NCBI GenBank assembly: GCA_016098155.1
Contig: JAAAJB010000094.1
Coordinates: forward strand, 1 to 64,000
Direction of reading: 5' to 3'
Length of the DNA: 64,000 bases
From: Actinomortierella ambigua
Taxonomy: Eukaryota; Mortierellomycota; Mortierellomycetes; Mortierellales; Mortierellaceae
The notes beneath the pieces are model-generated. The model worked only from the letters and a program-made list of their open reading frames with translations. It was not told the origin of the DNA and searched no databases. The first letter of the stretch is position 1; each line of letters starts with the position of its first letter. The position numbers and the translations under genes are program-made. Below are positions 7,262-21,550 of the stretch, one piece after another.

Positions 7262-9006
7262 GTTGTCCTGTGCGTTGCGAAGGTATGGGTGTGGGTGAGG
7301 GTGAGGAGACTGAGGAAGGGGGGGTTGGTGATTAGAGTTGTTGTTGTGCGGGTTGTTGGGAGAGGAGAGAAAGAGAGAAAGAGAGGATTGAAAGAGAAAA
7401 AGAGAAGAAAAGAGAGAGAGAGAGCAAAGCCAAAAAAGCTTGTACTACCCCGGTATAAATGAGAAGGGAGGCGGGGGGGGGGTACAGGCGGGAAACAACT
7501 GACGATATAGTGCGGTCAGGGCAACGTCAGCGATGATGGTGGGGCCTTGCTGTGGAATGAGCTAGGGGTGTCTGTGGAGTGATGATGAGTGAGTAATGCA
7601 AGCCGGCCTTGATTGCTGAGACCTGAGGAATGAAGGTGAGCTCTGGGAGATGAGGACGGAGGAAGGCGGTGATGCGAGGCGAGGGGACACTTTATAGCGT
7701 TTTGGACAAGGAAGAGAGAGCATGTGCTAATCCGCTGTCTTTGTTGGGGGTGGGGGCGAAAAGCTTCCAACGGTCAAGCCAACGTAGGTCCCACCACCAT
7801 AACTACACAAGTGTTCGCCGAGGAAAAAGAAAAAGAGAAAAGGTGCCAGATAGACAAGACTTCTTGGCACAGAACGACCCAATCAAAGAAACAAGGGGGG
7901 GTAAGGGGGGGAAAGGGCCCTTGTTTTTGCATGAGACAATCGATCAACGAACGTCCTGTGCTGGAGACACGCACCGCAACACCCAATAATAAGAACTTTA
8001 GGCTCAAACGGCCACCGCCACCAAATCAGTCCCAAAACTCCAAAAGGCTAATTTTTGTCAACAAATGCCAAGAGGAAAAAATAGAATCCCTTCCCAATCC
8101 CTTCCCTCTGACTTTTGTCTCACCTCATGGGCAGTAAGCAACCAAAAAAATAGAAGCTGACAGGGCCATGCCATGGTACAAAAGAAAAGGGAGGAGGAAA
8201 AAGGTGGGAAATATTGCTTTTCTCGTAGACTACTCAAATCACGGGTATTCCTTGGTAGTGAGTATAGAAGCAATTCTCTTTGCCGCGAAAAAAAACATTT
8301 GCCGACGGGAAAGCAACAGCAAACATAAGAGTTGATCGGCAATCAAAAAATATTCTTTCTTTTCGTGGCATGTCGCAAGCACGACCACCAGCGAAAACAA
8401 GAGTCAAGGACAATAGAGTGTAATACAGAAAAAAAAATGGAGGTCAAAGGGGGACAACAAGATGACAGGACAAGAAGGCTATGCGCCTTCCTGCCATGTC
8501 AAACTTATCGTTGGACTTTACCTCACCCTGCCAAAGAAACAACCTCGATTATTCCACTCACCTAAAGTCAATGTAGAGAAGGCAAAAAAAGGGTCAGCAT
8601 ACGTTGGTCCTTCCTTCTCCCTTGCTTATTCTCTCACAAGAATAGAGTGTTTGGTATTCAAGTCAGGTAGCTAATTTTAATCGATGAATACATGGAAAAG
8701 CCAAGCTGGAACACCAAAAGCTGGATTCACCATAGGACGAGACTCAAAAAGGCGAAAAGCGGAAGCACAAAAAACCAGACTTTACGAAAACAAGAGCGCA
8801 AGTGTTACCAATGTGGAAGATCACGATGGATCAGAAAGAAAAGCAAAAATGAATGTCAACCAGGTCTAGAGACCTAGCAATCAGGCAGGCACCAAGGTGC
8901 CCCATCCGATCCATCCATGCTTGACGAGAAACGACAGTTTCCCCAGAGAGCAGGATCTGGCATCCACATAAATTGCCCTAAAACTCCTTCTTTTGCCCTC
9001 AGCTAC
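7262..9006. other. No protein gene; tail of the snoRNA transcript and DUF4112 promoter
   Basis: The first 250 bases are the GA/purine-rich promoter of the DUF4112 gene. After that no reading frame looks like a protein. Two near-perfect hairpins stand out: GAAGGC-TATGC-GCCTTC at 8475-8491 (extended by CAGG...CCTG) and the palindrome GGCACCAAGGTGCC at 8887-8900. The right part (8640-9006) probably still belongs to the minus-strand snoRNA host transcript. It has splice-like motifs but no snoRNA I can name. Confidence 0.4.
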
Positions 9007-9151
9007 TTTCCGTGGTGAACACAGGTCTCCCAAATGCCTTCTGCCTGATTTGATACCCCGACATCTCAATCCTCGAGCATGTTCATCCTAAAAAGGTGGC
9101 CATACTTTAGACGCCAGACAAGACTCCCACCTCCTCTTCAGAAACACCAAC

Positions 9152-9254
9152 GCGGCAGTCAGGAAAACCCCAAAAGCTTTGCCAATGTCCCATCCAAGAG
9201 AGATGTAGCATCCTCATAGAATGGATATAACTAAATTTCATCACATGGCTGCCA
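9152..9254 (-). ncRNA. C/D box snoRNA, target unassigned
   Basis: It lies in the sixth intron. C box GTGATGA is at 9244-9238 and D box CTGA at 9162-9159. Flanking GGCAG (9253-9249) and CTGCC (9158-9154) form a perfect 5-bp terminal stem, so the unit looks functional. The D guide (AAAGCTTTTGGGGTTTTC) matches no rRNA or snRNA site that I can recall. ATCCATTC upstream of a D'-like ATGA could pair with GAAUGGAU in 25S, but the register is unclear. It is longer (about 90 bases between boxes) than its neighbours. Confidence 0.65.
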
Positions 9255-9464
9255 AACACTGGCAAGCGGAGGAAAAAGAAAAAGGGGCAATGACAATTAC
9301 CTTTAAAGAACTTGATGAATGCTCTGATCTGATTGACGCTTCAAGCAATTGCTCGGATTCTACAAGCAAAATCACAAAATCATTGATTTGCACAAGGTTA
9401 GCAAAGTGTGAATCAACATGAGTGATTGCGAGCCATATCACCATTTGGTGGTGTGAAAAGGAGG

Positions 9465-9537
9465 GAATCAGGGATCGGTATGTTGTCTTCAATGAGAAAC
9501 TGCAGATGAAACACGGATGATCATAAACATCATATTG
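9465..9537 (-). ncRNA. snR18: C/D box snoRNA, probable U18 ortholog (25S A649)
   Basis: It lies in the fifth intron. The C box is ATGATGT (9533-9527, last base off consensus) and D box CTGA is at 9471-9468. An internal TCCGTGTTTCA is a perfect 11-base complement of 25S UGAAACACGGA, the site of U18, and the register places the target on A649 (yeast numbering) if the D' box is the degenerate CATC that follows. The D-box guide (CATACCGATCC) has no target I recognise. It is called U18-like because of the guide; the degenerate D' box keeps confidence moderate. Confidence 0.65.
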
Positions 9538-9728
9538 CGCCACAACAGGAAAAGAATAAGAAGGCAAATGGATGTCATACACATACCACTTAGCAATGTC
9601 GAGCACAGGCCTTGTTGTATGAGCACCATGAAAATAGTGGGTACATCTAAAGTCAACAACAATCATCATTGGTTAGTTTCCGATCATTGTGATTATGATG
9701 CCCCAACAAGCGTTGGTGTAGATCGAAT

Positions 9729-9810
9729 ATTATCAGAGGTTGTTTTGGTATATTGGTTATCCGCCATGGCATTTGTCGGAAGCAGAACTGAAATTTGTTG
9801 TCATCAGAAA
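9729..9810 (-). ncRNA. snR61: C/D box snoRNA, snR61/U38 ortholog, copy 2
   Basis: It lies in the fourth intron. C box CTGATGA is at 9807-9801 and D box CTGA at 9736-9733. The internal guide CAGTTCTGCTT is followed by CCGA, a one-base variant of a D' box (9779-9776), so the predicted target is the same adenosine as copy 1 (25S AAGC-A-GAACUG). It also shares TACCAAAAC.ACCTCTGAT with copy 1, showing that the two are paralogs from a duplication of the intron unit, while the sequence between them has diverged. Its D' box is weaker than that of copy 1. Confidence 0.82.
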
Positions 9811-10032
9811 AAAAAAGGTGATCTGTACGGTAGAGACAATTTCAATCAAGACTTACTCATGGATGCGCGGGGAAATGTCCTTGACGGCCATTAAAACAAT
9901 GCGAGGAACACACAGGATCCAATCTGAAAAAAAATTAAAGAATATCAAACATTGATGAGCATCTCATGAAATCCAGCACATGGATCAAGACCCGTGGATA
10001 TACACAAAGGATGCGTGTGTCTTTAAAAGGAA

Positions 10033-10112
10033 GGATCAGAGGTCGTTTTGGTATTTTTTGTTATCTTCACTGGTTCTCAGTAGCAGAACTGGAAAAATTT
10101 GTTTCATCACAC
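10033..10112 (-). ncRNA. snR61: C/D box snoRNA, snR61/U38 ortholog, copy 1 (25S A1133)
   Basis: It lies in the third intron. C box GTGATGA is at 10110-10104, D' box CTGA at 10080-10077, a C'-like GTGAAGAT follows, and D box CTGA is at 10039-10036. The D' guide CCAGTTCTGCTA is identical to that of human U38 and complementary to 25S AGCAGAACUGG; the fifth position faces the A corresponding to yeast Am1133 (human A1858). The stretch GTGAAGATAA after D' is also shared with human U38. Just before the D box, ATACCAAAAC complements UUUUGGUA, which in yeast and human lies directly 5' of the same target. Confidence 0.9.
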
Positions 10113-10362
10113 ACAATCTTTTATCACACGCATCCATATCCCACAGTAACCGGGGATGTAATTGTGGATGACATACCATCATTCAGAACGACAAGGGCCT
10201 GCTGACCGCCAGCTACCCCTCGATCAACGTCATCTCAATCGAGTCAATATGGATGTACCATGATCTAAAAAGAAGATGATAACGACAAAGGTGATTAGAA
10301 CCTCATTCACCTCTGTTTTCAGCTGAAAACGTTCAAAGAAACAAAGGATGCGTGTTTCGATG

Positions 10363-10440
10363 AATCGTCAGATGGTAGTGCATGTTTCTTTGGATCAGGT
10401 GCTCACACGGAAACGGTATGGATTTTTCCTCATTCGAATG
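10363..10440 (-). ncRNA. snR55: C/D box snoRNA, snR55/U33 ortholog (18S U1269)
   Basis: It lies in the second intron. D box CTGA is at 10371-10368, preceded by CATGCACTACCAT, the same guide block I recall from human U33. It pairs with 18S GUGGUGGUGCAUG over 13 bases including G-U pairs, and the fifth position faces the U corresponding to yeast Um1269 (human U1326). The C box is degenerate (AATGAGG at 10434-10428), but TCG before it can pair with CGA after the D box to close the molecule. The degenerate C box is the only weak point. Confidence 0.8.
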
Positions 10441-10677
10441 GTGGATCGTAAAAAGACGCGTGTTACAAGATGAAGAACAGGAGCAAGAGTATTTACCTTT
10501 TGAGATGACGTTGATCAACAGATCAAGTTGGAGGTAACAAGGCACTTGCCAGAAAGCCTGAGCGTTGAACATTGAACAAGAGTAGTTTGATTAGTTGGGG
10601 CTATCCACGCTAGATGTTGCCATTGTATACGCTTTGGAGGGCAGCAAGAGGGAAAGAGGTGGGGAAGGTGGAAGGGG

Positions 10678-10766
10678 GATCAGAAACGAGGAATTCCATT
10701 TGTAGTTTACGTAAGTCCACATGATATATTCGGGATATCATTTATCGTAAAGGTGCTCATCAGATT
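10678..10766 (-). ncRNA. snR57: C/D box snoRNA, snR57 ortholog (18S G1572)
   Basis: It lies in the first intron of the host gene. C box CTGATGA is at 10763-10757 and D box CTGA at 10683-10680. The bases directly before the D box read GGAATTCCTCGTTT, complementary to AACGAGGAATTCC near the 3' end of 18S rRNA as I remember it. The fifth base before the D box faces the G of AACGAGG. Counting back from the 3' end of the yeast 18S sequence, this is G1572, the known target of yeast snR57. No strong terminal stem is visible. Identity rests on C and D boxes at the right distance plus a 13-base antisense match in the right register. Confidence 0.85.
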
Positions 10767-10887
10767 GGGTTGAGAGAATGCTGATCGAGTTCATCAAGAG
10801 TAACTGATGATCAGAATGGCGACTTACACAAAGATCGGGATGGTTAGAGGAGAAAGAAGTGTGCCCCAAACACAGTGCCTCGAAAAA

Positions 10888-10894
10888 TTTTATA
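10888..10894 (-). promoter_or_regulatory. TATA box of the snoRNA host gene
   Basis: TATAAAA on the minus strand, about 30 bases upstream of a pyrimidine-rich start region (around 10860) and about 60 bases before the first donor site GTAAGT at 10827. Position and sequence fit a polymerase II core promoter. The exact transcription start is inferred. Confidence 0.55.
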
Positions 10895-19955: not shown

Positions 19956-21550
19956 GGAGCAACGAAGGGGGGGAGATTAGGAAGAAGATTATTTTCCTGA
20001 ACATTCTCTGATTTCCATGCCAAGGGAGAGAGGGAGGAGTGGGGACGGAAGAACCCAGGTGAAGCAGTGGTGGGAGACGGTGAGATGTAATGGTGCATTT
20101 GCACATAGAATTGTGCAGCCTACTACACTTTTGTCTTCCTTCCATTACGCCATGTCTTCTTTGTTTTTTGGACAAGAGTCGACTTGCTTCGCTGAGCCCG
20201 TCCCTTTTTATTTTTTCCCAGGATCGATCCAGCTCTTGGGCCAAAGGTTAGAGCAAGGAGGGGATTGATGGATGGTTCGAGCCCACAGAACCTTTACGAC
20301 GCCAACTGTAGAACGACATCCCCTCCAGTAGACTCATGTTTCCATAGCTTCAAGAAAGAGCATTTGTTTGGGGGTTTTCCTTATGAAAGGGAGATGGAAG
20401 GTTTGTGGAGTGCAAAGGAAGATGCAACAATGTGGCTTTCTCCCTTCCCGCTCGATCCTGCTGTCTGTGAACCACGGTCCATTCAATGTCGTTGTTTGTA
20501 AGAAAACAAAATGTTTGTTCGCATTGTTCACTGAGCCGAGAGGAGGAAAAAAAAATAGTCTATTCGACTAAGGGAGCAGGTGTCAACTGTGTGGATTGTA
20601 GGGAGTAAGTGACCAATCTTTTTCTCTCGCTTCCCGAGCAACTGTCCTACCATCTCTTTTCAATCTTGATGAATAAGAGCTATTTTGTTGTTGTTGTGGT
20701 GCTGGATGTCAAGGCGCATAGAGGAGGAGCAAGGCACCCAAAAAAAAAAGTTTATGAGATGTGGCAAGTGCTGTTCGCAGTGCTCATCAAAGGAGTGAGG
20801 TTGAGGCGCGAAAGAGAGAGAGAGAGGGAAAGAGAGAGAGAGGGAGAAACAGAGGGATGCAGAGCAAAGGCCTGTGTTTGAATGTTTATGCTCGTGTGAA
20901 CGTGTGTGGAGAAGGCAAGCTTCTTTTTTTTTGTCTCTCATACACAGCACACTCGTTTGCTCTGCTGCTCTGTCAAAGGTCCCCCCCCCCTTCCCTTCCC
21001 CCGCTCAGGCGGGATTTGAGTTGATCAGAGATAATCCCCACAATTGATACAATTGATGGTGCCTGAAATAAAAAAAATGACGGCTGTGTGATGTGGTGTG
21101 AAAACATTTTCCCGGGTCCGGGCGTGGATTCTGGTTGTCGAATCCACACGCACACATCCTCACACTCTCTTTCTCTCACACTCTTTTCTCCTCTTCTCCC
21201 CCAAGGATGGAGTGTCAACTGTGTTGTGGGAGCGTACAGGGCACACAAGATGGGAAGAATTTTAAATTTCGTTGGGGTTCAGTGCCTCTAAACTTGCATG
21301 TGAGCGGGCCACTGATTTCGATTATCGAGGAGGGGGAGAGTTGCTGTAGCCCCTTTTAAAGTCTCTCCGACTTCTTGCTTCCTCTCTTTTTTTTTCCCTC
21401 TTCTTCTTTTCTTCTTCTTCATCCAGACTTTGCATCAGGCACATTCCTTCCCTTTTTATTCAAGTCTGCCACTCCTTCTCGCCTCCTGCTCATCCGTGGT
21501 GCATCTCTAATTCCGTCCAGCAAACCTCTCTGTGTCTAATTTCTACAATC
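19956..21550. other. Intergenic, no gene recognised
   Basis: About 1.6 kb between IMP1 and the phosphotransferase gene. There is a GA microsatellite at about 20811-20852, poly-C and poly-T runs, and a pyrimidine-rich block (21150-21200, 21360-21420) probably belonging to the downstream promoter and leader. A TTCGA loop near 20276 was checked and does not fold as a tRNA. Confidence 0.45.

Follow-up and report, generated by a model that had tools for sequence, protein, structure and literature searches.

A predicted spliced non-coding host gene with six intronic box C/D units in a Mortierella-type fungus: a further, extended member of fungal cluster II

Here we describe a locus on a 64,000-nucleotide (64-kb) stretch of DNA from Actinomortierella ambigua (contig JAAAJB010000094.1, positions 1 to 64,000; hereafter the window), in which seven short exons and six introns alternate along the minus strand, beginning at about position 10860 and extending to about 9000. 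The locus has the anatomy of a host gene for small nucleolar RNAs (snoRNAs), it contains guides complementary to the ribosomal RNA (rRNA) of other eukaryotes, and no supported protein is encoded by its exons. It is very probably a non-coding gene of RNA polymerase II, each of whose six introns would be trimmed to a box C/D snoRNA-protein particle that guides 2'-O-methylation of rRNA. Judging from this anatomy and from known pathways, RNA polymerase II would transcribe the minus strand from about position 10860, the six introns would be spliced out, debranched and trimmed to the mature particles, and the exons would serve as carrier sequence. The predicted guide targets are 18S G1572, 18S U1269, 25S A1133 (twice) and 25S A646, and one unit has no assigned target. 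The first three units would correspond to the snR57-snR55-snR61 array named cluster II in fungi, and introns 4 to 6 to an extension of it. Since this cluster was published in 2013 as intronic, with non-coding hosts, in many fungi, the main claim is a known one, and the locus is a further member of a described group.

The structure of the gene is given below in the direction of transcription. All introns have GT...AG ends; exons 2 to 6 are delimited by their splice ends, and the introns by their splice ends together with a background test.

10888 to 10894, minus strand: TATA-like box TATAAAA, read in the sequence; putative promoter element
10828 to 10857, minus strand: exon 1; 5' end approximate, start predicted
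10558 to 10827, minus strand: intron 1, 270 nucleotides (nt), GTAAGT...CAG
10497 to 10557, minus strand: exon 2, 61 nt
10265 to 10496, minus strand: intron 2, 232 nt, GTAAAT...TAG
10177 to 10264, minus strand: exon 3, 88 nt
9924 to 10176, minus strand: intron 3, 253 nt, GTATGT...CAG
9857 to 9923, minus strand: exon 4, 67 nt
9647 to 9856, minus strand: intron 4, 210 nt, GTAAGT...TAG
9587 to 9646, minus strand: exon 5, 60 nt
9360 to 9586, minus strand: intron 5, 227 nt, GTATGT...TAG
9301 to 9359, minus strand: exon 6, 59 nt
9088 to 9300, minus strand: intron 6, 213 nt, GTAATT...TAG, without consensus branch point
8990 to 9087, minus strand: exon 7; acceptor observed, 3' limit arbitrary

The position of the TATA-like box suggests a transcription start near 10860. 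For the background test, the C and D boxes were placed by hand, and the splice signals around them were set against those at 20,000 placements drawn at random from the two strands of the window. A donor motif is present 20-70 nt 5' of the C box in all six units, versus 3.7% of the random placements, and the combination of donor, branch-point consensus and acceptor is present in five of the six, versus 0.73%. Judged by these signals, each snoRNA would lie inside its own intron. An earlier note on this DNA had proposed the alternation of exons of 59-88 nt with introns of 210-270 nt, six junction pairs, and one C/D-type unit in each of the six introns. The exon and intron pattern and GT...AG at every junction are confirmed, with splice signals far above background, and the presence of one unit per intron is supported, with evidence that is uneven between the units. 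A DNA search of the assembly for a second copy of the host gene returned the locus itself as the sole match, and ARAGORN found no transfer RNA in the window.

At their own cut-offs, the Rfam models gave two matches in the window, both of them to snR61, in introns 3 and 4. With a relaxed threshold, 11 matches were obtained between positions 8400 and 11400, including one to SNORD33 in intron 2 (38.7 bits, cut-off 44, expectation value (E) 1e-4); eight of the 11 are weak (E 0.12 to 3.6) and lie over introns 2/3, exon 3 or upstream. When the whole 33.8-Mb assembly was searched and the best candidates were scored, snR61 was recovered at both loci (E<=0.001), the copy in intron 4 at 44.3 bits and hence under the cut-off, and SNORD33 at the intron 2 locus (E<=0.1). 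Thus, of the Rfam matches that the earlier note had suggested looking for, snR61 was found twice above its cut-off and SNORD33 below it, and no family was matched in introns 1, 5 and 6 at E<=5 between 8400 and 11400.

A search of the 33.8-Mb assembly for 5.8S rRNA found nothing, and judged by this empty search the ribosomal DNA (rDNA) seems to be absent from the assembly. Guide targets were judged on ten stand-in stretches of eukaryotic rRNA (five of the large subunit (LSU), four of the small subunit (SSU) and one of 5.8S), which are rDNA contigs filed under bacterial assemblies. Most of them are partial, one was used with its group I introns in place, and a single stretch represents the 3' third of the LSU, so that targets located there could be missed. 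As a separate observation, the eukaryotic rDNA contigs found inside bacterial metagenome-assembled genomes (L012 and L014-L017, L015 with three group I introns) are contamination of public assemblies.

We scanned both strands of the window for stretches of at least 11 nt that are complementary to at least three of the ten rRNA stretches and that adjoin a D-like box, one mismatch being allowed in the box. This gave seven rows at six sites, four of which are situated in introns 1, 3, 4 and 5 of the host gene. At the two sites outside the gene (20666 and 42603, plus strand), one of which lies in apparent coding sequence, no C/D unit was seen when the sequence was inspected. A stricter test of anatomy, requiring RTGATGA, CTGA and a terminal stem of at least five Watson-Crick pairs, singled out the unit of intron 6 from 65 RTGATGA motifs on both strands, and introns 1-5 failed it. 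Stems formed by the flanks were as stable in 0 of 200 mononucleotide shuffles for intron 3 and in 5 of 200 for intron 6, and they were not above chance for introns 1, 2, 4 and 5 (93, 56, 66 and 174 of 200, respectively). The units and associated elements are as follows.

10680 to 10697, minus strand: intron 1, snR57-like guide GGAATTCCTCGTT (10697-10685) and D box CTGA (10683-10680); complementarity, no Rfam match
10362 to 10440, minus strand: intron 2, snR55/SNORD33-like snoRNA, predicted target 18S U1269; Rfam RF00133, 38.7 bits, under the cut-off of 44
10125 to 10135, minus strand: intron 3, 5' arm of the external stem; 0/200 shuffles as stable
10033 to 10115, minus strand: intron 3, snR61 copy 1, predicted target 25S A1133; Rfam RF00476, 64.6 bits; 11-nt guide in 5/5 LSU stretches
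10009 to 10019, minus strand: intron 3, 3' arm of the external stem; 0/200 shuffles as stable
9730 to 9812, minus strand: intron 4, snR61 copy 2, predicted target 25S A1133; Rfam RF00476, 57.6 bits in the window; 11-nt guide in 5/5 LSU stretches
9468 to 9533, minus strand: intron 5, C/D-type unit with guide TCCGTGTTTCA (9517-9507), D'-like CTGC (9505-9502) and D box CTGA (9471-9468)
9159 to 9244, minus strand: intron 6, C/D-type unit with GGCAG/CTGCC terminal stem, no assignable target

The 13-nt guide of intron 1, GGAATTCCTCGTT, is an exact complement of 18S rRNA in three of the four SSU stretches and ends one base before the D box. By the D+5 rule it is predicted to direct methylation of 18S G1572, the site of snR57; the D+5 base is the one that we take to be G1572 in yeast numbering. 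The C box of this unit is tentative (TGATGA at 10796), and the 5' end of the snoRNA is uncertain. In intron 2, the SNORD33 match is accompanied by a pairing of 12 bp at the U33 site, one of them G-U, in two of the four SSU stretches; a third stretch (L015) shows an equally long pairing elsewhere, unrelated to this site. The guides of introns 3 and 4 point to the same base, 25S A1133, and in intron 3 the snR61 unit is enclosed by an external stem of 11 bp. The assignments to snR57, to snR55/U33 and, twice, to snR61/U38 that had been put forward from the letters are upheld by these results, and so is the order snR57-snR55-snR61, which is that of the yeast cluster and of cluster II, snR57 being recognised here by its guide and D box. 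Introns 2 (10330-10358) and 3 (9993-10021) also share, 3' of the snoRNA, a stretch of 29 nt with 79% identity, which provides one arm of the external stem in intron 3.

Intron 5 had been assigned to U18 (25S A649) in the earlier note, and it is this assignment that did not stand. The 11-nt guide TCCGTGTTTCA is complementary to all five LSU stretches, and it is shifted by three bases from the U18 register and terminates one base before the D'-like CTGC. The D+5 rule therefore gives A646, three bases 5' of the U18 target, and the guide is not in register for A649, which is why we rejected the U18 identity. We instead regard intron 5, with reasonable but not high confidence, as a predicted guide for the base corresponding to A646 of yeast 25S and to Am1310 of humans. 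It could be argued that intron 5 is nevertheless a paralogue of U18 that methylates A649 through a non-standard spacing, because the guide spans the U18 target region and D' boxes are often degenerate. We consider this rather improbable: the box lies one base downstream of the guide, as it does in introns 1 and 3, which places A646 at D+5, and a U18 candidate with the usual register is present on another contig (C131, 7454-7546, plus strand; about 1506-1590 of L007). This candidate has a C box ATGATGA, a 13-nt guide TTGGTCCGTGTTT found in the U18 register in all five LSU stretches, and a CTGA box. In Rfam it scores 24 bits (cut-off 41, E 0.575), and matches below the cut-off occur at this level in 4 of 14 control genomes, which favours the paralogue; as this score is at chance level, the support for the candidate comes from its guide.

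Taking intron 5 as a candidate A646 guide, with CTGC as the D' box, it would be in register for the base that is Am1310 in humans and Am841 in Dictyostelium, three nt 5' of the U18 site. It resembles SNORD126 and CD12, respectively, in its predicted target base, and common descent of these snoRNAs is not claimed; the guide of human SNORD126 presumably has the same register. In the LSU table of a Dictyostelium study, Am844 (CD24) is given as the counterpart of yeast Am649 and human Am1313; Am841 (CD12) is listed there with no yeast, human or Arabidopsis entry (PMC8817022). Am1310 of human 28S is among six newly identified human sites (PMC8393311) and is paired with SNORD126 in another table (PMC9941101). 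SNORD126 is still termed an orphan elsewhere (PMC10682241; PMC8148486), which speaks against this pairing. If the prediction for intron 5 is confirmed, guides for the base equivalent to Am1310 would exist in humans, in an amoeba and in an early branch of the fungi, and the missing yeast and Arabidopsis counterpart in the Dictyostelium table (PMC8817022) would fit loss and not recent gain in animals.

The unit of intron 6 has the anatomy of a C/D snoRNA, with a C box GTGATGA, a D box CTGA and the terminal stem GGCAG/CTGCC. Its guide pairs over 11-12 bp with one of the five LSU stretches (L012). Upstream of its C box, 13 nt (TTTTCCTCCGCTT, 9264-9276, minus strand) are complementary to the conserved 5' part of the LSU, over 13 nt in two of the five LSU stretches and over 11 nt in one more; no D box follows them, and this complementarity may be due to chance.

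Several observations weigh against the interpretation of the locus as a host of six functional snoRNAs. Firstly, the host gene is predicted here from its sequence, and the guide targets were judged on rRNA that is not this fungus's own. Secondly, only two of the six units exceed the Rfam cut-off, and introns 1, 5 and 6 are matched by no family. Thirdly, introns 1, 2 and 5 have imperfect C boxes; with the C box chosen, the unit of intron 1 would measure 117 nt. Finally, the D-box guide of intron 6 has no conserved complement among the stand-in rRNA stretches. Part of this evidence would also fit the explanation that introns 5 and 6 hold decayed units, or sequences that look like C/D snoRNAs by chance, and that four snoRNAs (snR57, snR55 and two copies of snR61) are expressed. 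Neither of the two units was matched by Rfam; that of intron 5 has a weak C box (ATGATGT), a D' box CTGC and no terminal stem, and intron 6 has no assigned target, nor was a consensus branch point found in it when looked for. We think this explanation unlikely, since the guide of intron 5 is one of only six places in the window where a guide adjoins a D-like box, since the base it is predicted to target appears among the methylated positions listed for other eukaryotes, and since intron 6 contains the window's only C/D unit with a terminal stem.

A further point against a non-coding host is an open reading frame (ORF) of 109 codons, which spans exons 4-7 and remains open across three predicted junctions. 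Many snoRNA hosts are ribosomal protein genes, and the host might likewise be a protein gene whose coding sequence includes this ORF. Such a gene is very improbable here. The joined exons contain stop codons in every frame, as had been noticed before, and an ORF of at least 109 codons is found in 69 of 1000 dinucleotide shuffles, within what chance would give. Moreover, when the ORF was compared with about 5.8 billion proteins, none of the five candidates that shared words with it, and could be scored, reached E<=1. Published cluster II hosts are also described as having no long ORFs (PMC3596301). We therefore rejected protein-coding exons, and the proposal of a non-coding host resembling the mammalian UHG and GAS5 genes is supported; as in cluster II, the host has no apparent protein-coding potential.

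The exons contain one additional element, an inverted repeat that flanks intron 2.

10500 to 10516, minus strand: inverted repeat, exon 2 arm; 17 bp, perfect
10222 to 10238, minus strand: inverted repeat, exon 3 arm; 17 bp, perfect

Most likely, this repeat is a functionless, neutral inverted duplication. Outside the 17-bp core the stem has only a slight advantage over shuffled sequence (51 of 1000 shuffles as good), and the fold of exons 4-7 is indistinguishable from shuffles (z -0.2). However, simple sequence aside, no inverted repeat within 600 bp exceeds it in length anywhere in the window, and its arms bracket a single snoRNA intron. The joined exons are predicted to fold at -65.8 kcal/mol, which is lower than 100 dinucleotide shuffles by 7.0 standard deviations, with 45 pairs beneath the loop. 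When the entire precursor is folded in prediction, the stem persists and loops out the snR55 intron. Allowing up to three mismatches, the arm occurs in the assembly at its own two positions and at three other places, each with three mismatches. It is conceivable, and in our view doubtful, that the stem is a processing element which would loop out the snR55 intron for splicing-free release by a double-strand-specific RNase. If that were true, one gene would combine the intronic route that most fungi use with the RNase III-like route of yeast, and would represent an intermediate stage of the intron loss that has been published. Splicing would leave the stem as a long hairpin, with its loop containing the exon junction, and Dicer might accept it as a substrate. 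The stem offers a way to test how a splicing-dependent cluster could turn into an RNase-processed one.

Outside the locus, two copies of snR38 were found on the minus strand of another contig (C443; L004 3545-3625 and 3212-3290), with 49.2 and 46.3 bits for Rfam RF00213 (cut-off 45). They are located between coding parts of a gene for eEF1B-gamma (Pfam EF1G); the snoR38 matches belong to this gene, and we rejected them as part of the snoRNA host gene. Yeast snR38 resides in an intron of TEF4 (PMC3454408), and host and guest appear to have been kept together between yeast and this fungus. A search for SNORD43 (RF00221) of cluster III gave no match, and the controls gave none either. A protein that the window encodes about 12 kb from the locus shares 94% identity, across 91% of its length, with an Actinomortierella ambigua protein, followed by other Mortierella-type fungi at 81-82%; on the evidence of this one protein, the fungus belongs in or close to Mortierellaceae.

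In mammals, UHG and GAS5 carry one C/D snoRNA per intron between exons without a conserved protein. The gene described here resembles them in having one C/D unit per intron and apparently non-coding exons, and common descent is not claimed. Its closest known counterparts are the cluster II genes. The linkage snR57-snR55-snR61 was reported in nearly all fungi analysed by Luo et al. (2013, PMC3596301), who describe it as intronic in Basidiomycota, Rhizopus oryzae and Euascomycetes (the last having lost the snR57 intron) and as unspliced in Saccharomyces cerevisiae and its close relatives, with hosts that are poorly conserved and lack long ORFs. The suggestion of the earlier note that the linkage is old while its expression differs, by splicing or by processing of unspliced RNA, is in its general form already published (PMC3596301). 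The locus shares with cluster II its three snoRNAs, their order, their placement in separate introns and a host that lacks long ORFs. Here they are followed by a second snR61 and by two more C/D-type introns, of which the text of that paper, its figures and supplements aside, makes no mention (PMC3596301). Spliced hosts are also described in Neurospora crassa, where intronic C/D snoRNAs in UHG-like genes with short ORFs were verified by reverse-transcription PCR (PMC2780460), and in Candida, where such clusters have spliced non-coding hosts (PMC5033589). The present gene is like the Neurospora hosts in its intronic C/D units and predicted spliced, non-coding host, and differs from them in phylum and gene content; here, as in the comparison with UHG and GAS5, the gene is predicted from its DNA. 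Literature on Mortierella and snoRNAs yielded nothing relevant by title or by the start of the abstract. The three-unit extension, the A646 guide and the 17-bp inverted repeat in the exons are possible novelties, and the locus adds a Mortierella-like case for the ancient linkage of snR57, snR55 and snR61 and for their intronic expression in fungi.

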